Origin: a bacterium
GTDB lineage: Bacteria; Hydrothermota; DG-26; JAUXAN01
Assembly (NCBI GenBank): GCA_030619885.1
Contig: JAUXAN010000011.1
Span: 1-58,525, forward strand
DNA: 58,525 nt
Direction of reading: 5' to 3'
Part shown: positions 106 to 55,672 of the stretch, one piece after another
How positions within the stretch are numbered: the first letter of the stretch is position 1
How the letters are laid out: the number at the start of each line of letters is the position of its first letter
Translations under genes and position numbers: made by a program
The notes under the pieces: generated by a model
Told to the model about the DNA's origin: nothing
Databases searched by the model: none
What the model saw: only the letters and a program-made list of their open reading frames with translations

Positions 106-2469
106 TTAAATATTTCCGTGCTCTGTCCTTGCAATTATCTCATCCTGCAGGTCTTTTCCCAGGTCTACGAAATAATCGCTATATCCTGCTACACGGATTA
201 TAAGGTCCCTGTATTTCTCCGGGTGCCTCTGTGCATCTCTAAGGGTCCTGGTGGTTATAACATTGAACTGAATATGATGACCGTCAAGCTTGAAATAAGC
301 TCTTATTAGATGTGCAAGTTTTTCTATTCCTGTCTCATCCTCAAGAAGCTTTGGCATGAATTTCTGATTGAGGAGAGTCCCTCCTGTTCTTACATGGTCA
401 AATTTCGCAACGGATTTTATTACAGCTGTAGGTCCGTGTCTATCTGCTCCCTGGCTCGGAGATACTCCATCAGATAGCGGTTCCCCAACCCTCCTTCCAT
501 TCGGGGTGGCACCTGTAACTTTCCCGAAATAAATGTGAACTGTTGTGGGCAGAAGGTTGACCCTATATCTCCCTCCCTTGGTGTTTGGCCTTCCTTCGAG
601 GATATTGAAGTATGCTTCAAATATTTCCTTTGAAAGTTCGTCAGCATAGTCATCGTCATTTCCGTATTTTGGCGACCCATTTAAAAGCATCTGTCTTATC
701 TTTTCCTTTTCTTCAAAATTCTTCCTCAGGGTATCAAGAAGTTCATCCATTGTGAGGTTTTTCTTATCATACACATGATATTCTATGGCAGCCATAGAAT
801 CTGTGATGGTTCCCATGCCAACTCCCTGGATGTATGTTGTGTTATACCTGGCTCCTCCATCGTGGTAATCCTTTCCTTTCTTTATGCAATCTTCCATCAA
901 CAAGGACATAAAGGGGGTTGGCATGTATTCAGCATATAGCCTCTCTATTATGCTATTTGCCTCAACTTTCATATCAACGAAATATTTAAGCTGCTTCCTG
1001 TAGGCTTCCATAAGTTCGGCAAAGGTTTTGAAATTCCTTGGATTTCCTGTTTCCAGCCCAATTTTCTTCCCTGTCATTGGATCTACTCCATTGTTCAGCG
1101 TGATTTCAAATATTTTTGGCCAGTTCATGTATCCTGTCAAGGTGCAGCTTTCCTTTCCGAATGCGCTTATTGTCACACAGCCACTTGGACCTCCTGCCCT
1201 TGCATCTTCTATCGTCTTACCTGCTCTTAAAAATTCCACTATTATGGCATCGGTATTAAAGAATGAAGGCTGGCCAAACCCCTTTTTTACCACCTTTGAC
1301 GCTCTTTTCAGGAGCCTGTCAGGGGTTTTTTTGCTCAACTGGACACAGCAGCTTGGCATCATCATGTGCATCTCCTCAAGGATGTCAAGAATAAGATATG
1401 AGAGTTCATTCACAGCGTCAGAACCATCCTTTTTTATGCCTCCAACATTTATGAGGGAGAAATCCTGGTATGTGGCACTCTGTTCCTCTGTTACCTCCAC
1501 CTTTGGAGGAGCTGGCTGGTTGTTGAATTTTATCCAGAAGCATTCCAGAAGTTCCGTTGCAAATTCCCTGGTAAGCATTCCACCTTCAATATCCTTTTGA
1601 TAAAACGGGTAAAGGTTAAGGTCAAGGCGGCCAGGATTAAAGGAGTCCCAAACATTGAGCTCAGTTATTACACCAAGGTGTATAAACCAGTACATTTGAA
1701 GGGCTTCCCAGAAATCCCTGGGAGGATGTGCTGGAACATGGTTGCAAACATCTGCGATTTTTGCAAGCTCTTTTTTCCTCTGATGGTCTTTTTCCTTTTC
1801 CATAAGCTCCTTAGCGTTTTCTGCATACCTCCTCGCCAGAATTATCAGGGCATCTGCGGCTATTTTCATGGATTTCAATTCCTGTTCCCTATTATGGGTT
1901 CCCAGATCGTTAAAATAATCAAGATTCTTCAGCCTCTCGTCTATTTCCTTCTTGAAGTCCTCAAGTCCCTTGTAATATATTTTGTCGTCCATAATTGCGT
2001 GCCCAGGTGCTCTCTGTTCCATAAACTCAGTGAAAACCCCTGCGTTGAATGCCTCCATCCAATCCTTTGACATTGAGTTAAATAACCTCTCCCTCATTGT
2101 TCTTCCTTCCCAGAAGGGAATAATCCTTTCCCTGTATATCTTCTTTACTTCGTCGCTGACATTAAATTTTGTTTTCCCTCTGGAATTCAGCACTTCCAAA
2201 TCCTCAAGGGTATGGCAACATTGTTCAGGATAGGTTGGGGTTGCTCTTGGTGCAGGACCTCTTTCCCCTACTATAAGCTCGCCGTCATCAATGAAAATTT
2301 CCTTGTTTTCCATTATATGTTTTAAAGACAGTGCACGGGCAACCTGCACGGAAACCCTCTCAGGTACTCCGCTTTTATAAAATTCCGTTATCAACTGAGC
2401 TCTTTCAGTTGAAACATAGGGTCCTGTGTTTACACTTTTTCCCCTTAATTTTTTTACCCTCTCTGTCAT
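106..2469 (-). CDS. HypD-like glycyl radical enzyme, substrate unknown
   Basis: A 787-residue glycyl radical enzyme of the pyruvate formate-lyase superfamily. The C-terminal radical loop reads RVAGYSDYF, which places the glycyl radical on Gly762. The active-site thiyl cysteine is Cys431 in GPSGCVT. Length and the LTGY...LNNGVDP segment after the cysteine most resemble the trans-4-hydroxyproline dehydratase (HypD) branch. Most dehydratase and lyase members carry Cys-X-Glu here, the Glu acting as general base. This protein has Thr433 instead, so HypD activity should not be assumed. The enzyme is cytoplasmic and oxygen sensitive. It lies 2 bp downstream of its activase on the same strand and is presumably cotranscribed. 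Family assignment is secure; the substrate is not known. Confidence 0.93.
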   Translation of the reverse strand: MTERVKKLRGKSVNTGPYVSTERAQLITEFYKSGVPERVSVQVARALSLKHIMENKEIFIDDGELIVGERGPAPRATPTYPEQCCHTLEDLEVLNSRGKTKFNVSDEVKKIYRERIIPFWEGRTMRERLFNSMSKDWMEAFNAGVFTEFMEQRAPGHAIMDDKIYYKGLEDFKKEIDERLKNLDYFNDLGTHNREQELKSMKIAADALIILARRYAENAKELMEKEKDHQRKKELAKIADVCNHVPAHPPRDFWEALQMYWFIHLGVITELNVWDSFNPGRLDLNLYPFYQKDIEGGMLTREFATELLECFWIKFNNQPAPPKVEVTEEQSATYQDFSLINVGGIKKDGSDAVNELSYLILDILEEMHMMMPSCCVQLSKKTPDRLLKRASKVVKKGFGQPSFFNTDAIIVEFLRAGKTIEDARAGGPSGCVTISAFGKESCTLTGYMNWPKIFEITLNNGVDPMTGKKIGLETGNPRNFKTFAELMEAYRKQLKYFVDMKVEANSIIERLYAEYMPTPFMSLLMEDCIKKGKDYHDGGARYNTTYIQGVGMGTITDSMAAIEYHVYDKKNLTMDELLDTLRKNFEEKEKIRQMLLNGSPKYGNDDDYADELSKEIFEAYFNILEGRPNTKGGRYRVNLLPTTVHIYFGKVTGATPNGRRVGEPLSDGVSPSQGADRHGPTAVIKSVAKFDHVRTGGTLLNQKFMPKLLEDETGIEKLAHLIRAYFKLDGHHIQFNVITTRTLRDAQRHPEKYRDLIIRVAGYSDYFVDLGKDLQDEIIARTEHGNI

Positions 2470-2471
2470 TT

Positions 2472-3449
2472 CTATCCTCCTATATTTATTTTCAATCCAA
2501 AGCCCTCAAGCATGTTTTTAATCTCCCCCATCGTTTCCTTTGAGGGAGGTTCTGTAATAAATGGTTTACATTTCCTGCGCAGCCTTTTGAACTTATCAAT
2601 CCAGGCGTTGTGGTGGGGAAGCAAGCATACCTTATCTATATTGGGAAGAGAAGATAAGAACCTACTAATGGCTTCCATGTTTTTATTATCCTCATTTACC
2701 CCGGGAATAACAGGGATGCGAACGTTTATTTTTTTACCTCTTCGGGAAAGCTCTTTTAGATTGTTCAATATAGGTTCATTTGGTACTCCAGTGTGTTTTC
2801 TGTGTTTGTCGCTGTCCATATGCTTCAAATCATATAGGAAGAGGTCAACAAGTTCACTTATCCTAAGAACAAGTTCCAGATTAGCATAACCGGAGGTATC
2901 AAGGGTAGTATGAATATACCTCCCCTTGCACTCTTTAAGAAGTTCTTCCAGGAATCTGGGCTGCATGAGAGGTTCTCCCCCTGAAAAAGTTACTCCGCCC
3001 CCTGATTCATCGTAAAATACCAAATCCTTTTCTATCTCTCTCATAACCTCTCCAACTGTGATTTCCCTACCAACTATTTCAATGGTCTGAGGATGGCATA
3101 CCTTAATACACTCTCCGCAGAGGTCGCATTTTTCCGCATCTATAAACAAATTCCTATTGTTCAAAGAAATTGCCCCTCTATCGCAAGCTTTTAAACAGTC
3201 CTCACATTTTATGCACCTGTCCTGCCAGACTATAATCTCCTTTTCCATTTTTATCCCCTCCGGGTTTTGACACCAGGGACATCTCAGGGGACATCCTTTG
3301 AAGAATATAGTAGTGCGGATTCCGGGGCCATCGTGGATTGCGTATTTTTTTATGTCAAAAATCATACCTTGGTTCTTTCCCTTTTTTTCACTTATTACTT
3401 CCCTCCCTCTTCCAGTTTGTCTAAAGGGACTCGTTATTTTTTCTGTCAT
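2472..3449 (-). CDS. Glycyl radical enzyme activating enzyme (radical SAM)
   Basis: Activates the adjacent glycyl radical enzyme by abstracting a glycine hydrogen with a 5'-deoxyadenosyl radical. The radical-SAM motif GCPLRCPWC gives the CX3CX2C cluster at Cys53, 57 and 60, counted from ATG 3449. Two ferredoxin-type CX2CX2CX3C clusters follow at about residues 79-89 and 108-118, as in activases of HypD, CutC and glycerol dehydratase. A later SGGEP motif belongs to the SAM-binding region. The start is uncertain: the open frame reaches 3482, but that part lies in a dispersed repeat. ATG 3449 has a weak ribosome site, and ATG 3365, just before IFDIKKYAIHDGPG, would also fit the family. The stop is 2 bp from the glycyl radical enzyme start. 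Confidence 0.92.
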   Translation of the reverse strand: MTEKITSPFRQTGRGREVISEKKGKNQGMIFDIKKYAIHDGPGIRTTIFFKGCPLRCPWCQNPEGIKMEKEIIVWQDRCIKCEDCLKACDRGAISLNNRNLFIDAEKCDLCGECIKVCHPQTIEIVGREITVGEVMREIEKDLVFYDESGGGVTFSGGEPLMQPRFLEELLKECKGRYIHTTLDTSGYANLELVLRISELVDLFLYDLKHMDSDKHRKHTGVPNEPILNNLKELSRRGKKINVRIPVIPGVNEDNKNMEAISRFLSSLPNIDKVCLLPHHNAWIDKFKRLRRKCKPFITEPPSKETMGEIKNMLEGFGLKINIGG

Positions 3450-3456
3450 ACGACCC

Positions 3457-3516
3457 GTCCATTCCATACGGATGCTGTGCAACGGATCCGTAGGGATATG
3501 GGATGCTGTGCAACGG
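3457..3516. repeat. Dispersed repeat, two direct copies
   Basis: The 16-mer ggatgctgtgcaacgg occurs exactly at 3470-3485 and again at 3501-3516. The first copy is preceded by ccattccatac. The core recurs inverted at 43597-43625 and in diverged form at 48071-48100 and 49154-49171. It overlaps the 5' end of the activase reading frame, which is why that frame appears to extend upstream. Confidence 0.75.
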
Positions 3517-3643
3517 CTCTGTGAGTGGATAAATTTCCATTAGTGAATATTATGTCATACTTCATATAGTATGTCAAATGGAATAGACACGCCTTCACTT
3601 CGGGGTTGCTTCGCTTTCGCTCGCACTGACGAAAAAGAACGTT

Positions 3644-3674
3644 GTCATTGCGACCCGTAGGGGGAAGCAATCTC
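3644..3674. repeat. cattgcgac...aagcaatctc dispersed repeat
   Basis: The segment begins gtcattgcgacccg and ends gaagcaatctc. It matches the general form of a short repeat widespread in intergenic DNA of many uncultured bacteria (cattgcgag...gaagcaatct). Only one copy is seen in the window, so its repeat status rests on prior knowledge. Confidence 0.5.
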
Positions 3675-3753
3675 ATTCTCCCACTTCTCCCTTTCCCCTT
3701 GATTTGAATCTGTCTATACGGATCAAGAGATGTAATCCGTGGATTATTTTCTC

Positions 3754-36376: not shown

Positions 36377-36393
36377 TCTTTGTGGCAAAAAAT

Positions 36394-37689
36394 ATGAAAC
36401 GCATATTCATCAAATCATTGGCAAGAGTAGAAGGTCACGGGGGGATTACCGTTAAGATAGATGGTAAAAAAGTCAAGGATGTGAAAGTTCAAATCTATGA
36501 AGGTCCAAGGCTTATAGAGAAACTGGTAGTGGGTAAGTCTCCCGAAGATGTTCTCAATATCGTGCCAAGAATCTGTGGTATATGTACCCTTTCTCATCGG
36601 TATGCAGCTCTTAAGGGATTGGAGAAAGCATTGAATATTGAAGTGCCTCTCAGAACAAGACTCACAAGAGACCTTATGCTTATTGGAGAGATTATCCAGA
36701 GCCATTCATTACACATCTTTTTTCTATCTCTCCCTGATTTTCTTGGCTATTCCTCGGCTATGGATATGGTGGATAATTATGGTGAGGAAGTGAAGAGGGG
36801 TCTTGCCATGAAGGGTTTCGGGTATCGGCTTATGGAGATCATAAGTGCTCGAATAATCCACGGCGAGAATCCCATACTGGGAGGATTTGGTGCTCATCCA
36901 TCTCAAAAAGTGCTTGTCGAAATCAAAGAGTCAGCGGAGAAACTCGTCTCAGATGCGGAAAAAATTGTGGAATTGTTTGCATCCTTTGATTACCCTTCTT
37001 ATGTGGAGTATGACACAACTTTTATGGCACTCAATCCACCCGATGGGAAATACGGCTTTGTAAGTAATTCAATTCTCATTTCCACAGATGAAGAAAGAAG
37101 TGTGGAAGAATATAAGGAAGTAATTCAGGAACGGGTAGTTCCATACTCCTTTGCTAAGAGGTCAAGGTATAATGGGGAACCTTTCACCGTCGGAGCGATT
37201 GCAAGGATAAACCTTTTGGGTGAAAGACTATCAGGGAAGGCAGGTGATTATTACAAGAAATTATACAGCAAGAGGTGGCTGAGGAATCCCTTTTTTAATA
37301 ATCTTGCGCAGGCTATAGAGGTCTTGTACTGTCTTGAGACTATTCCTAAATTAGTGGATAAGATAATGGGACTTGAAGAGCCGGTGGTGAAGAAACCATT
37401 TAAAGATGCTGGAACAGGAACTGGAGCAGTGGAGGCACCAAGAGGCACATTATATCATTACTATTCTATGAAGGATGGATTGATCACTGATTGTGACATA
37501 GCTACTCCAACTGCCCAAAATTTGGACGATATCGAGCGATGTCTGAGAACAGCAGTTGGAAATCTGCTATCAAAAGGGATTGAAGACGACCTGGAGCTAA
37601 AGTTGGAAATGATAGCAAGGGCTTACGACCCATGCATAAGCTGTTCTGCACATTTAGTAAAAGTAGAAACTAGCAATAATTCCGATTAA
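36394..37689 (+). CDS. hydA: [NiFe]-hydrogenase large (alpha) subunit
   Basis: A 431-residue catalytic subunit that interconverts H2 and protons at a Ni-Fe site. The N-terminal pair is Cys61 and Cys64 in RICGICTLSH. The C-terminal pair is Cys414 and Cys417 in DPCISCSAH, after which maturation cleavage at His420 would remove 11 residues. RVEGHGG near the start is also typical. ATG 36394 is preferred over GTG 36382; no good ribosome site is seen, because the upstream region is a repeat. Its processing protease follows one base after the stop. Confidence 0.95.
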   Translation: MKRIFIKSLARVEGHGGITVKIDGKKVKDVKVQIYEGPRLIEKLVVGKSPEDVLNIVPRICGICTLSHRYAALKGLEKALNIEVPLRTRLTRDLMLIGEIIQSHSLHIFFLSLPDFLGYSSAMDMVDNYGEEVKRGLAMKGFGYRLMEIISARIIHGENPILGGFGAHPSQKVLVEIKESAEKLVSDAEKIVELFASFDYPSYVEYDTTFMALNPPDGKYGFVSNSILISTDEERSVEEYKEVIQERVVPYSFAKRSRYNGEPFTVGAIARINLLGERLSGKAGDYYKKLYSKRWLRNPFFNNLAQAIEVLYCLETIPKLVDKIMGLEEPVVKKPFKDAGTGTGAVEAPRGTLYHYYSMKDGLITDCDIATPTAQNLDDIERCLRTAVGNLLSKGIEDDLELKLEMIARAYDPCISCSAHLVKVETSNNSD

Positions 37690-43596: not shown

Positions 43597-43625
43597 GTCC
43601 ATTGCACAGCATCCGTATGGAACGG
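43597..43625. repeat. Dispersed repeat copy (inverted)
   Basis: ttgcacagcatcc followed by gtatggaacgga is the reverse complement of the repeat at 3457-3485. It lies in the spacer between the M42 gene and the reductive-dehalogenase-like gene. Confidence 0.7.
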
Positions 43626-49246: not shown

Positions 49247-49340
49247 ATCTTTATGAAATATTGGCAGATACCATTAAACGCCGGGAGGAAGAAATAACAA
49301 TATTCTATGGTAACAGTATAATGAAGAGATGGAGGGGCAA

Positions 49341-49736
49341 ATGAAGAGAAAAATCAGAGTTTTGGTCGCAAAACCCGGACTCAATGGTCACGATAGAGGT
49401 GCAAAGGTTGTTGCCGCTGCCCTTCGGGATGCAGGAATGGAGGTGATATATACAGGCTTACACCAGACATCAGAACAGATAGTCGAAGCAGCGATTCAGG
49501 AAGATGTGGATGTGATTGGACTGTCAATTCTCTCTGGTGCCCATATGACTATATTCTCAAAAGTATTGGAACTTCTCAAAGAGAAGGGGGCTGGACATAT
49601 TATGGTTACAGGTGGAGGAATAATTCCAAAAGACGAAATCGCAAAATTGGAGAAAATAGGGGTGAAAAAACTCTTTGGGCCGGGGACTGCAACGACCGAG
49701 ATAGTAGAGTTTATAAAACAGAATGTGAATCGATAG
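49341..49736 (+). CDS. Methylmalonyl-CoA mutase small subunit (B12-binding)
   Basis: A 131-residue cobalamin-binding domain. [20 protein letters not shown] holds the axial His17 of the HxxG signature. [12 protein letters not shown] and [11 protein letters not shown] complete the B12 fold. The catalytic domain is a separate gene at 54122, as in archaeal and many anaerobic bacterial mutases. ATG 49341 follows GGAGGGG. It is first in the operon. Confidence 0.94.
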
Positions 49737-49745
49737 TGTGGCTTT

Positions 49746-50585
49746 ATGAAATTTGGAGATATGGAACTTTTCTCTCTTTCCGATGGTATTTTCCGACTGG
49801 ACGGTGGGGCTATGTTTGGAGTGGTCCCGAAAGTTTTCTGGAATAGACTGAACCCTGCAGATGAGCAGAATCGCATTGAATTAGGACTAAACTCTCTTCT
49901 GATTAAAACCGAGCAGAAAAACATCCTGATCGATACAGGGATCGGTGATAAATTCGATGAGAAATTTATAGAGATATACAAAATTGAAAAGCAAAAAGAT
50001 CTCACTACATCTCTTGGTGAAATTGGACTTTCTTTGGATGATGTAGATATTGTGGTCAATACTCACCTCCACTTCGACCATTGTGGAGGAAATACTAAAA
50101 AGGAGGGGGGGAAGGTAGTTCCTACATTTCCACGAGCAAGGTATTATATCCAGAAAGGTGAATGGGAGGACGCCGTGAACCCAAATGAACGGACAAAAGC
50201 CAGTTATCTTAAAGATAATTTTGTTCCGATTGAAGAAAATGGTCAACTCCAATTGATAGATGGGGATACTGAAATTGTATCAGGGGTCAAAACCGTGGTT
50301 ACCGGTGGACACACCCCACACCACCAATCTATTCTGATAAACTCGGCTGGAAAGACCGCATTCTATCTTGGCGATTTGATACCTACGGCTTCACACATAA
50401 AGATACCCTATGTGATGGGCTACGACCTCCTCCCATTGGATACGATTAGAAAGAAGAAAGAAATGCTGGAAAAGGCGCAAGACGAAAATTGGCTCCTGAT
50501 CTTTGAACACGACCCAAAAATCACTATGGGATACCTCGAAGATAAAGAGGGCAAAGTATGCATTAAAACAGTTGGGGAGAACTGA
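49746..50585 (+). CDS. MBL-fold hydrolase (lactonase-like)
   Basis: A 279-residue metallo-beta-lactamase-fold protein with [19 protein letters not shown], a GD at FYLGDLIPT and a final FEHDP histidine. The pattern resembles quorum-quenching lactonases and hydroxyacylglutathione hydrolases. It lies inside the methylmalonyl-CoA operon, its stop overlapping the carboxyltransferase start (TGATG). A role on a CoA thioester or lactone intermediate is possible but unproven. Confidence 0.85.
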
Positions 50586-52135
50586 TGTCTATAGATGAAA
50601 AACTTAAGCACCTTGAGAGATTGAAGAAAGAGGCATTGCTTGGGGGTGGTAAGGAGAGGATAGAGAAGCAGCACCAGAAGGGGAAGTTGACTGCTCGCGA
50701 AAGGATAGATTTGCTCTTAGACAGAGGTAGTTTTCGGGAGACGGATATGTTCGTTACACATAGATGCACTGATTTTGAGATGGATAAGAAGAAGATACTC
50801 GGTGATGGTGTGATAACAGGTTATGGAACGATCGATGGAAGGCTGGTCTATGTGCTCTCTGAGGATTTCACCGTATTCGGTGGCTCTTTGAGTCTTGCTT
50901 ATGCAGAGAAGATTTGCAAAATCCAGGACCTGGCACTGAGGAATGGTGCGCCTATAATAGGGTTGAAAGACTCGGGTGGTGCGAGGATACAGGAAGGGGT
51001 GGATAGCCTCGCAGGTTATACCGAGATATTCTTGAGGAATGTGCTCACCTCAGGTGTAGTTCCCCAGATTTCAGCAATAATGGGCCCATGCGCTGGTGGA
51101 GCGGTCTATTCCCCTGCACTAACCGATTTCGTCTTTATGGTAAAAGGGACATCTTATATGTTTTTAACAGGACCCGATGTGATAAAGTCAGTGACCCATG
51201 AAGAGGTTAGCTTTGAAGAATTGGGCGGTGCGATGATACATAATACAAAAAGTAGTGTGGCACATTTTGCATCAGATAATGAAGAAGAATGTCTGGCTTC
51301 GATTAAGGAACTACTCGCCTATATTCCTTCTAACAATATGGAAGATCCACCAACAGTCGAATGTAAAGATGACCCGAATAGAATGGATGCGAGTCTGGAC
51401 TCTATGGTTCCTGATTCACCGATTAAACCTTACGATATGAAAGAGTTGATACATAGGATAGTCGACGATGGGAAATTGTTCGAAGTTCAGCCACATTTCG
51501 CAGAGAATATCATCGTGGGATTCGCAAGGTTGAACGGAAGGAGTGTAGGGATAGTAGCGAATCAACCCGCTGTATTAGCAGGGGTGTTGGATACGAAATC
51601 ATCAATAAAAGGCGCAAGATTTGTAAGATTCTGTGATTGTTTCAATATACCGCTTGTGACCTTTGTGGATGTTCCTGGTTTTCTACCAGGGGTCGACCAG
51701 GAACACACCGGGGTGATAAAACAGGGTGCGAAACTCATGTATGCATTCTGTGAAGCTACCGTGCCACGGCTAACCGTGATAACTCGAAAAGCTTACGGGG
51801 GTGCCTATTGTGTTATGAACTCCAAACATATGCGTGCCGATGTGAACTATGCATGGCCAGGTGCAGAGATTGCTGTGATGGGACCAGAAGGGGCGGTAAA
51901 CATTCTATATAGGAAAAAAATCGCTGAATCGAAGGATAGCGCAAAGACAAGGTCGAATCTAACTACAGAATTTACAGGAAAATTTGCCAATCCATATATC
52001 ACAGCAAGCAAAGGGTATATAGACGAGGTGATTCAAGCGAAGGAGACGAGGGCAAAACTTATAAGTGCACTTGAGATGCTGCAGAATAAAAGGGATACAA
52101 ATCCAGCAAAAAAACATGGGAATATACCTCTGTGA
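50585..52135 (+). CDS. mmdA: Acyl-CoA carboxyltransferase (methylmalonyl/propionyl-CoA)
   Basis: A 516-residue carboxyltransferase subunit of the MmdA/PccB family. [32 protein letters not shown], the oxyanion motif [13 protein letters not shown] and [15 protein letters not shown] are all present. It moves CO2 between biotin and propionyl-CoA. Which way depends on partners: with the biotin carboxylase next door it would carboxylate propionyl-CoA; with a sodium-pumping decarboxylase it would run the other way, but no membrane subunit is seen here. Confidence 0.94.
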
Positions 52136-53631
52136 TGTTTAAAAAAATCTTGGTGGCAAATCGTGGGGAGATAGCCGTCCGCGTGCTTCGCGCCTGCAAG
52201 GAACTTGGTATACCCACCGTTACCGTATATTCTGAAGCGGATAGAAATGCTCTGCATGTGAGATATGGAGATGAAGCCTATTGTATCGGTGAGCCACCTT
52301 CTACTGAAAGTTATCTGAAGATAGAGAAAATAGTAGATGTGGCTAAAAAGTGCGGTGCTGAGGCTGTGCATCCCGGATATGGGTTCCTTGCAGAGAATAC
52401 CCTATTTGCAAAAAGATGCGAGAAGGAAGGAATAACCTTTATCGGACCATCGAGCAGAGCGATAAAACTTTTGGGTGATAAAACCGTCGCCCGTAAGACG
52501 ATGTCAAATGCAGGAATATCCATTGTTCCCGGAACTGAAAAAGGGTTGACAGACGAGAAAGACGCGATGAGGATTGGTTTAAAACTCGGCTTTCCCCTTA
52601 TGATAAAAGCGGCTGGCGGTGGTGGTGGAAAAGGCATGAGAATAGTGAAGAAGAAGGAGGAACTCAAAAGCGCCATTAAGACAGCGATGGCAGAGGCGGG
52701 GTCTGCCTTCGGGGATCCAAGAATATACTTCGAACGTTATCTCATCAATCCAAGGCATATAGAATTTCAGATACTCGCTGATAGTTATGGTAATGTTGTC
52801 CATCTGTGTGAAAGGGAATGTTCGATACAGAGGCGACATCAAAAGATGATCGAAGAATCCCCTTCCTGTATAATGACACCAGAACTCAGAAAAAGGATGG
52901 GAGAAATTGCGTGTAAGGTCGTTCTAACATGCAATTACACAAATGCAGGAACTGTCGAATTTCTTGTGGATAAAGATAAGAACTTCTATTTCCTGGAGAT
53001 GAATACTCGACTCCAGGTCGAACACCCAGTTACAGAACTAGTTACTGGGGTTGACATAGTGAAAGAGCAGATCCATATATCCGCTGGAGAGAAACTCACT
53101 TTGAAACAGAAAGATGTGTCTATCAGAGGCGCTGCTATAGAATGTAGAATATCAGCAGAAGACCCGTATAACAATTTCATGCCTTCTTCAGGAAAGATAA
53201 TGCAACTCGTGGAGCCATCTGGACCTGGGGTGAGGGTAGAAAGTGGGATATTTGAAGGGTTCGAGGTACCTATCTTATACGACCCGCTCATCGCGAAATT
53301 GCTAACATGGGGAAGGGATAGAAACGAGGCAATAGCACGAATGAAGAGGGCGCTGAGTGAATATAGAATTTATGGGATTAAAACGACCATCCCTTTTCAT
53401 CTACATGTTATGGACAATGACTCATTCATAAGCGGAAAGTATGATACGGGTTTTGTGGAAAAACTCTCTTTTGAAAGGGGTGGGAGAACCCAAGATGAGA
53501 TTGCAGCTATAGCGGCCGTTATATATGCCACTAAACAGCAGAAACAAGTTACTATTCAAAAAAGAGGAAAAGGGTATAACCTATGGAAGATGGCTGGAAG
53601 GGTAGGTTTTAAGGGGCAATGGCATACATAG
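52135..53631 (+). CDS. Biotin carboxylase subunit
   Basis: About 498 residues of the AccC/PccA biotin carboxylase family. ILVANRGEIAVRVLRACKEL opens the protein, and the ATP-grasp region has KAAGGGGGKGMRIV, then ERECSIQRRHQKMIEE and FLEMNTRLQVEHPVTE. It carboxylates biotin with bicarbonate and ATP. ATG 52135 overlaps the previous stop (TGATG). It overlaps the biotin carrier gene by 13 bases. ATP use points to propionyl-CoA carboxylase rather than a transcarboxylase. Confidence 0.95.
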   Translation: MFKKILVANRGEIAVRVLRACKELGIPTVTVYSEADRNALHVRYGDEAYCIGEPPSTESYLKIEKIVDVAKKCGAEAVHPGYGFLAENTLFAKRCEKEGITFIGPSSRAIKLLGDKTVARKTMSNAGISIVPGTEKGLTDEKDAMRIGLKLGFPLMIKAAGGGGGKGMRIVKKKEELKSAIKTAMAEAGSAFGDPRIYFERYLINPRHIEFQILADSYGNVVHLCERECSIQRRHQKMIEESPSCIMTPELRKRMGEIACKVVLTCNYTNAGTVEFLVDKDKNFYFLEMNTRLQVEHPVTELVTGVDIVKEQIHISAGEKLTLKQKDVSIRGAAIECRISAEDPYNNFMPSSGKIMQLVEPSGPGVRVESGIFEGFEVPILYDPLIAKLLTWGRDRNEAIARMKRALSEYRIYGIKTTIPFHLHVMDNDSFISGKYDTGFVEKLSFERGGRTQDEIAAIAAVIYATKQQKQVTIQKRGKGYNLWKMAGRVGFKGQWHT

Positions 53632-54122
53632 TCACTATAGGGGAGAAGACTTTCAAGGTTGATATAAAGGATATAAATACAAAAAGTGGGGAGAGTAGTT
53701 TCCATCTTACCCTTGATGGGAAACCATTGGAAGCAACTGTGGTTGAAGTTAACAACCCCTCCCACCTTTCTCTCATCGTGAACAACCGTTCTTATGAGGT
53801 GGTAAAAGGGGAGGGGGTGGTGGCTATAGATGGCGAACTGTACTATGTAAAAGTAGAAGATGAGATTGCAAGTCGATTTGCGAAGACCCGCGGGGGTGGG
53901 GCTGAAGAGAAGACAGAGATAACCGCACCGATGCCAGGTTTTGTGGTTGCGGTTGAGACAAAGGTGGGGGAGAGGGTTGTCGCTGGAGAGGGGGTTATTA
54001 TTTTAGAAGCGATGAAAATGCAGAATGAACTGAAGGCACCGAGGGACGGGATAGTAAAGAAAATCCCTATTAAAGAAGGGATGACCGTAAACGGTGGCGA
54101 TACACTCCTTACTTTGGAATAA
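53619..54122 (+). CDS. Biotin carboxyl carrier protein
   Basis: A 167-residue carrier. The N-terminal part is a beta-rich domain like that of pyruvate/oxaloacetate carboxylase carriers. The C-terminal biotinyl domain has EAMKMQNEL, with biotin on Lys133, preceded by [18 protein letters not shown]. The two domains are joined by a short linker ([15 protein letters not shown]). It shuttles carboxybiotin between the two enzyme subunits encoded upstream. Confidence 0.94.
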
Positions 54123-55672
54123 TGAGACCTGTATTCGAGCCGAAGGATATAAAAGATATAGATTATACCAAAGAGATTGGTGCTCCTGGAAATTATCCAT
54201 TCACCAGAGGCATATATCCCACAATGTATTCTGGGAGACTCTGGACGATGCGGCAGTATGCCGGGTTTGGGACTGCTGAGGAGACGAATAAAAGATATAA
54301 ATACCTTTTAGAACAGGGGCAGACAGGACTTTCGGTCGCTTTCGATCTACCTACCCAGATGGGTTACGACTCTGACCATCATCTATCCAAAGGAGAGGTC
54401 GGTAAGACAGGGGTAGTGATAGATTCTTTGGAAGATATGGAAATTCTGTTCAAAGATATACCGCTCGATAGGGTCTCTACCTCGATGACCATAAACTCTA
54501 CAGCATCCATACTGCTTGCTATGTATGTTGCAGTTGCAGAGAAGCAAGGCATCCCACCAAAACTACTCACCGGGACTGTCCAGAACGATATTCTGAAAGA
54601 GTATATAGCGAGGGGTACTTACATATTTCCCCCAAAACCTTCGATGCGGTTGACAGTCGATATATTCTCTTACTGCAGTGAAAACATACCGAAATGGAAT
54701 ACCATATCTATAAGCGGATACCATATACGGGAGGCGGGCTCGACCGCGGTTCAGGAACTCGCCTTTACCCTCGCAAATGGTATCGCCTATGTAGACGAAG
54801 CGAGCAATGCAGGGCTGGATGTGAACAAATTCGGTGCGAGACTGTCGTTTTTCTTCAACGCTCACAACAACTTCTTTGAAGAAATTGCAAAGTTCAGAGC
54901 ATCGCGAAGGCTGTGGGCAAAGATAATGAAGAAAAGGTTCAATGCGAAAGAACCAAAGGCACAGATGCTCAGATTCCATACCCAGACCGCAGGTTCCACA
55001 CTTACTGCTCACCAATTTGAAAACAATGCGGTGAGGGTAGCACTCCAGGCGCTCGCTGCAGTCTTTGGCGGCACCCAGTCGCTCCATACCAATTCAATGG
55101 ATGAGGCGCTTGCCCTTCCATCGGAAGAATCGGTTCGTTTAGCATTACGGACACAGCAGATAATCGCTTATGAGAGCGGTGTTGCCAACACCGTTGACCC
55201 ACTCGCAGGCTCATACTATGTAGAGTGGCTAACAAAGGATATGGAAAAGAAGGCCGATGAATATATAGAAAAGATAGACAAACTTGGAGGTTCACTAAAG
55301 GCGATTGAGAATGGGTTCTTTCAGAGGGAGATACAGAAAAGTGCATACGAATATCAAAAGAGTGTAGAGAAAAAAGAGACGACGGTTGTTGGAGTAAATG
55401 CATTTACGGTCGAAGAAGAAGCGAGTCCAAAAAGGATACTGAAAGTTGACCCGATGGTCCAGAAAGTCCAGATTGCAAAGTTGAAAAAATTAAAAAGAAA
55501 AAGGGATAATAAGAAAGTTAATCTGTCCCTTAAGAAATTAAAGAAGGAGGCTGAGGGTAGGGGAAATTTAATGTTCCCTATATTGGACTGTGTCCGTTCC
55601 TATGCAACGCTCGGTGAAATCTGTGATGTATTGAGAGTAATTTTTGGCGAATATAAACCACCCAGATTATAA
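54122..55672 (+). CDS. Methylmalonyl-CoA mutase large subunit
   Basis: A 516-residue catalytic TIM-barrel subunit that interconverts methylmalonyl-CoA and succinyl-CoA with the B12 subunit at 49341. [72 protein letters not shown] and [18 protein letters not shown] are hallmark segments, including substrate-binding Tyr/His/Gln residues. It lacks the C-terminal B12 domain because that is a separate gene. Start overlaps the carrier stop by one base (TAATG). Confidence 0.95.

Follow-up and report, generated by a model that had tools for sequence, protein, structure and literature searches.

Described relatives of the enzyme

The closest described system is HypD of C. difficile (PDB 6VXC and 6VXE; NCBIfam model NF043068), a glycyl radical enzyme (GRE) of anaerobic hydroxyproline breakdown that acts as trans-4-hydroxy-L-proline dehydratase and whose functional residues are Glu436, His160, Asp278, Asp339, Ser334, Phe340, Tyr450 and Thr645, with Phe152, Trp277, Arg156 and Lys326 near the site (PMC7077986). 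The glutamate of the Cys-X-Glu (CXE) motif is conserved among GRE eliminases (PMC7077986, PMC8473560), and the E436Q variant of C. difficile HypD shows no activity (PMC7077986). It has been argued that in HypD Glu436 contacts or orients the leaving hydroxyl rather than serving as the base, its role in other eliminases; Asp278 is the proposed acid/base (PMC7077986). Among other GREs, HplG, a hydroxyproline C-N lyase (PDB 7VUA), also acts on a hydroxyproline and retains Cys-Ile-Glu, the N-methyl-cis-4-hydroxyproline dehydratases (PDB 8IOF, 8ID1) act on a hydroxyproline derivative and have Cys-Val-Glu, and the glycerol and 1,2-propanediol dehydratases (PDB 1R8W, 5I2A), which have the same GRE eliminase fold, carry Cys-Val-Glu with Glu proposed as base. 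In one solved hydroxyphenylacetate decarboxylase (PDB 7e7l) Cys-Val-Leu replaces CXE, thus a non-Glu third position does exist in a GRE of another activity.

A HypD-like gene encodes Cys-Val-Thr in its Cys loop

Here, we analysed a stretch of 58,525 nucleotides (the window) which represents an entire contig (C19). The genome comprises 2.46 Mb at 97% completeness and comes from a phylum that includes records labelled candidate division WOR-3. At the contig end lies a GRE gene; the contig stops 105 bases past it, which cuts off the window's own downstream side. The following features were recognized:

106 to 2469, minus strand: glycyl radical enzyme, HypD-like, with a PFL-like domain and a Gly-radical domain, 787 aa (translation; NF043068, 1287.8 bits, cut-off 1100)
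1171 to 1182, minus strand: Cys loop Gly430-Cys431-Val432-Thr433, with Thr433 at the position of the HypD catalytic Glu436 (translation and alignment)
184 to 186, minus strand: Gly762, the glycyl radical site in RVAGYS (aligned to HypD Gly765)
2472 to 3482, minus strand: radical SAM glycyl-radical activase, ORF of 336 aa, likely start at 3365 (profile search; best model NF043069)

The initial annotation had reported the Cys-Val-Thr (CVT) loop, and translation confirmed it: G430 is encoded by GGC (1180-1182), C431 by TGT (1177-1179), V432 by GTG (1174-1176) and T433 by ACA (1171-1173). The reading frame is open, and Thr433 aligns without gaps with Glu436 of C. difficile HypD. Since 21 other bacterial genomes, all of the same subclade, have a Thr codon at this position, with four different Thr codons across the set, a sequencing error or frameshift was ruled out and a one-off mutation was rejected as the source of this residue. 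The Gly762 loop and a dedicated activase, also described earlier as intact, are indeed both present. The activase gene adjoins the enzyme gene on its upstream side, and its ORF contains the radical-SAM CxxxCxxC motif and two ferredoxin-like clusters. Its best model is that of the HypD activase, with a score of 393.8 bits that lies below the cut-off of 425. The family model does not cover the first 38-39 residues of the ORF, so that translation probably begins at M40 (codon 3363-3365).

The protein belongs to a variant subfamily within HypD

The rest of the protein is HypD-like, in agreement with the initial annotation. Behind NF043068 the runner-up NCBIfam models follow far below (sulfopropanediol dehydratase 629 bits, choline lyase 559 bits). 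C. difficile HypD is the best PDB match both by sequence (1104 bits) and by fold (TM 0.96 at about 57% identity, Foldseek of an AlphaFold2 model), and a FastTree phylogeny rooted on glycerol and propanediol dehydratases placed the protein inside the HypD family. In contrast, HplG is distant (443 bits), and the CXE glutamate that it retains is absent here; the N-methyl-cis-4-hydroxyproline dehydratases share about 34% identity. Six other CVT proteins scored with NF043068 reach 1184-1295 bits, all above the cut-off; thus the HypD model accepts proteins regardless of the missing glutamate. Among the six CVT relatives from a scan of GTDB genomes, identity is 64-79% over essentially full length. 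Because one reported defining residue (Glu436) is absent, we file the enzyme as a HypD-like variant subfamily and not as plain HypD. A different Cys loop, GGPIGCVETVAFGRERSTLTGY, outside the usual signatures, was seen in another HypD homologue (L106).

The likeness to C. difficile HypD extends from the fold, the Cys and Gly loops and the adjacent activase to every published substrate-binding residue but one. The equivalents of the functional residues lie as follows:

1999 to 2001, minus strand: His157, equivalent to HypD His160, the partner of Glu436 in HypD (alignment; invariant in 99 HypD homologues)
1645 to 1647, minus strand: Asp275, equivalent to HypD Asp278, the proposed acid/base (alignment; role from PMC7077986)
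1459 to 1479, minus strand: Ser331, Asp336 and Phe337, equivalent to HypD Ser334, Asp339 and Phe340, the carboxylate, amine and ring contacts (alignment)
1129 to 1131, minus strand: Tyr447, equivalent to HypD Tyr450, a carboxylate contact (alignment)
544 to 546, minus strand: Thr642, equivalent to HypD Thr645, a carboxylate contact (alignment)

According to the alignment, all eleven published hydroxyproline (Hyp)-binding or catalytic residues besides Glu436 (Phe152, Arg156, His160, Trp277, Asp278, Lys326, Ser334, Asp339, Phe340, Tyr450 and Thr645 in HypD numbering) are unchanged in the window protein and in all its subclade relatives, and most of them differ in the glycerol and propanediol dehydratases. 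Unlike C. difficile HypD, however, the subclade carries common changes at HypD positions 161, 162, 331, 333, 378, 431, 438, 445 and 453. The diagnostic ones, found in Thr and Glu members alike, are T161A and V162I beside His160, A331E and E333Q beside Ser334, T431P, G438S and Y445C in the Cys loop, and N378C; five of them (E333Q, A331E, G438S, Y445C and T161A) affect second-shell residues that are constant, or nearly so, in other HypDs. The AlphaFold2 model has an overall confidence of 87, with pLDDT below 50 in the Cys loop (432-436) and the His157 region, which came out equally poor in a CVE (Cys-Val-Glu) control folded from the same 29 sequences. Thus, the model was not used for any reading of Thr433.

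Thr and Glu interchange within one subclade

Homologues were gathered by the scan of GTDB genomes and by whole-genome searches of four lineages, which gave an alignment of 99 HypD-family sequences, 28 of them in one subclade and 71 outside it. Glu was found in all 71 outside sequences, while the subclade has Thr in 22 members and Glu in six. Its members come from four phyla: WOR-3, Acidobacteriota, Latescibacterota and Planctomycetota (Phycisphaerae). When column 436 was left out, a 27-row version of the subclade received 100/100 support inside HypD (IQ-TREE), and over its well-supported branches the Thr/Glu label changes at least three times. Every observed Thr/Glu exchange takes two nucleotide changes. 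The simplest history would be a single Glu-to-Thr change near the subclade base with Glu regained later, at least twice if Thr is ancestral there; independent losses would be a possible, less simple alternative. The initial annotation had named, as a finding that would speak against a different chemistry or substrate, clustering inside a characterised family in which Thr is already known at this position: the protein does cluster inside the HypD family, but a characterised Thr member was not found. Likewise, no Thr variant of HypD was found in the open-access literature, the original HypD and HplG papers aside.

Gene neighbourhoods and the fate of the product

Since the contig ends beside the GRE gene, gene neighbours are taken from related loci. 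Two Thr forms (L123 and L134) lie in clusters of activase, GRE, M2/M3-like peptidase, SSF symporter and Xaa-Pro aminopeptidase genes, and a third (L002) has the order GntR, activase, GRE and Xaa-Pro aminopeptidase. Ordinary Glu forms have the same kinds of partners, GntR and aminopeptidase in L148 and L152, peptidase and aminopeptidase in L153. The Xaa-Pro aminopeptidase, GntR and M2/M3-like peptidase genes thus occur beside both Thr and Glu forms, the SSF symporter with two Thr forms. A Thr form (L133) and a Glu form (L127) from the Phycisphaerae search have a common order, c31, activase, GRE and TRAP DctM. Such common neighbourhoods make it hard to believe that the substrate changed with every Thr/Glu exchange. 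At one locus of a WOR-3 genome (L005:2170-5012), genes for an MttB-family methyltransferase, a corrinoid protein and its activation are divergent from the CVT GRE operon; as a general clue to an N-methylated substrate this was rejected, since the other loci did not show it.

A gene for P5C dehydrogenase is present in the window's genome (G000:C7; TIGR01237, 705.5 bits, cut-off 659.65), therefore a route from (S)-delta1-pyrroline-5-carboxylate (P5C) to glutamate is available. The enzyme was also found above the cut-off in three genomes with CVT forms (G060, G061 and G063) and in CVE-bearing genomes of the same phylum. Its presence fits P5C as the product, as in HypD, and is no proof of it. ProC was looked for and not detected in the window's genome, but we rejected this as a sign of a different product, since 20 of the 22 sampled genomes with ordinary CVE HypDs have no match either. 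The CVT Phycisphaerae do have ProC, and in one of them (G784) it adjoins the P5C dehydrogenase gene. The enzyme is the sole PFL-like protein found in the window's genome, and in each of nine genomes checked (this one and eight related) there is one GRE, thus no second HypD serves as cover.

A probable hydroxyproline dehydratase with threonine in place of the glutamate

The enzyme is probably still a dehydratase of trans-4-hydroxy-L-proline, in which Thr replaces the CXE glutamate of a HypD-type GRE and P5C is the product. Since the Hyp-site residues are kept, the neighbours are common to Thr and Glu forms and a P5C dehydrogenase is encoded, we consider this more probable than either a new chemistry or a change of substrate. 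The same evidence, together with the Thr/Glu interchange, led us away from the view of the initial annotation that chemistry or substrate is probably different. The conserved site and the Thr/Glu interchange between close relatives suggest that the CXE glutamate may be dispensable in this HypD-like enzyme. Because Glu436 is proposed to orient the hydroxyl and not to act as a base, HypD would be the eliminase in which loss of this residue is easiest to tolerate. Several findings stand against Hyp dehydration, namely the inactivity of E436Q, the altered second shell, as expected of a retuned site, the undetected ProC, and the activase score just below the HypD-activase cut-off.

From the observed sequence, motif, conservation, phylogeny, gene context and occurrence of a P5C dehydrogenase we infer the substrate, the reaction and the role of Thr433 as follows. 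By homology, the activase would make the Gly762 radical, and Cys431 would become a thiyl radical that abstracts a hydrogen at C5 of Hyp. Asp275 would deprotonate the amine and protonate the leaving hydroxyl, with the carboxylate held by Ser331, Tyr447 and Thr642, and the ring and the amine handled by Phe337 and Asp336, respectively. Water would then depart and the hydrogen return to C4. In place of Glu436, the hydroxyl group of Thr433 would contact the leaving hydroxyl together with His157 and perhaps a water molecule. Peptides would be the source of hydroxyproline; oxidation of the P5C to glutamate would fall to the P5C dehydrogenase, whose gene lies in another part of the genome.

A further reading is possible, although on the unlikely side: the whole subclade (PSGCV[T/E]-x-S-A-FGKESC, with E333Q and A331E) may have a rebuilt site without need for the CXE glutamate, and may either use some relative of hydroxyproline in place of trans-4-hydroxy-L-proline, or dehydrate Hyp by a different proton route. 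If so, a new GRE activity would be hidden under the HypD annotation.

A different proline-type substrate for the subclade, such as another hydroxyproline stereoisomer, 3-hydroxyproline or N-methylated hydroxyproline, is unlikely; in this reading the enzyme would have retained its contacts to amine and carboxylate and altered the one to the hydroxyl. The pattern of substitutions would agree with it, as only the hydroxyl-facing residue and its second shell differ, and GREs for N-methyl-cis-4-hydroxyproline are represented in the PDB. However, Glu and Thr interchange in the subclade, once at one and the same locus with unchanged neighbours, and ordinary CVE HypDs share neighbours with the subclade. 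The MttB-type methyltransferase and corrinoid-activation gene beside the activase in L005 would point to N-methylation, but this arrangement was seen once and is divergently transcribed.

We regard it as very improbable that loss of Glu abolishes dehydration in favour of C-N cleavage, decarboxylation or addition. The conservation of the CXE glutamate in GRE eliminases, the dead E436Q variant and the Cys-Val-Leu of the decarboxylase 7e7l would all argue for such a change, but the Hyp site is complete but for Glu, C-N-cleaving HplG itself keeps Cys-Ile-Glu and is far from the clade, and Thr as the ancestral state would imply that the clade has regained Glu. That the enzyme is inactive or in decay, its active-site change being neutral, might be suggested by the one missing catalytic residue but is scarcely credible, as Thr is kept over four phyla with codons varying synonymously, the other catalytic residues, Gly loop and activase are all intact, and the six CVT relatives show 64-79% identity over essentially their full length.

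A natural Glu-less subfamily with Glu in sister lineages offers paired orthologues for asking whether this residue positions the leaving group, serves as a base or acts together with His160. It also cautions that proteins without the glutamate pass the current HypD annotation model with full credit.

Other features of the window

Beside the activase, the intergenic positions 3460-3522 contain two near-identical 22-nt repeats with the core GGATGCTGTGCAACGG, 31 nt apart. The core occurs a third time at 43599-43614 on the minus strand, there with one mismatch, and shares the flank TTCCATACGGATGCTGTGCAA; the copies exceed chance (expected 0.02) and look like a dispersed repeat. At 3620-3690, TCATTGCGACCCGTAGGGGGAAGCAATCTC resembles what we take to be a REP-like repeat of the kind frequent between the genes of environmental genomes. 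Further along, positions 36382-37689 encode a nickel-dependent hydrogenase large subunit, and the small ORF behind it resembles a maturation protease. A propionate/methylmalonyl-CoA cluster occupies 49329-55672 and comprises a split methylmalonyl-CoA mutase (B12-binding part at 49329, large part at 54122), a carboxyl transferase at 50585 and, at 52132, an ORF that by appearance is a putative biotin carboxylase.
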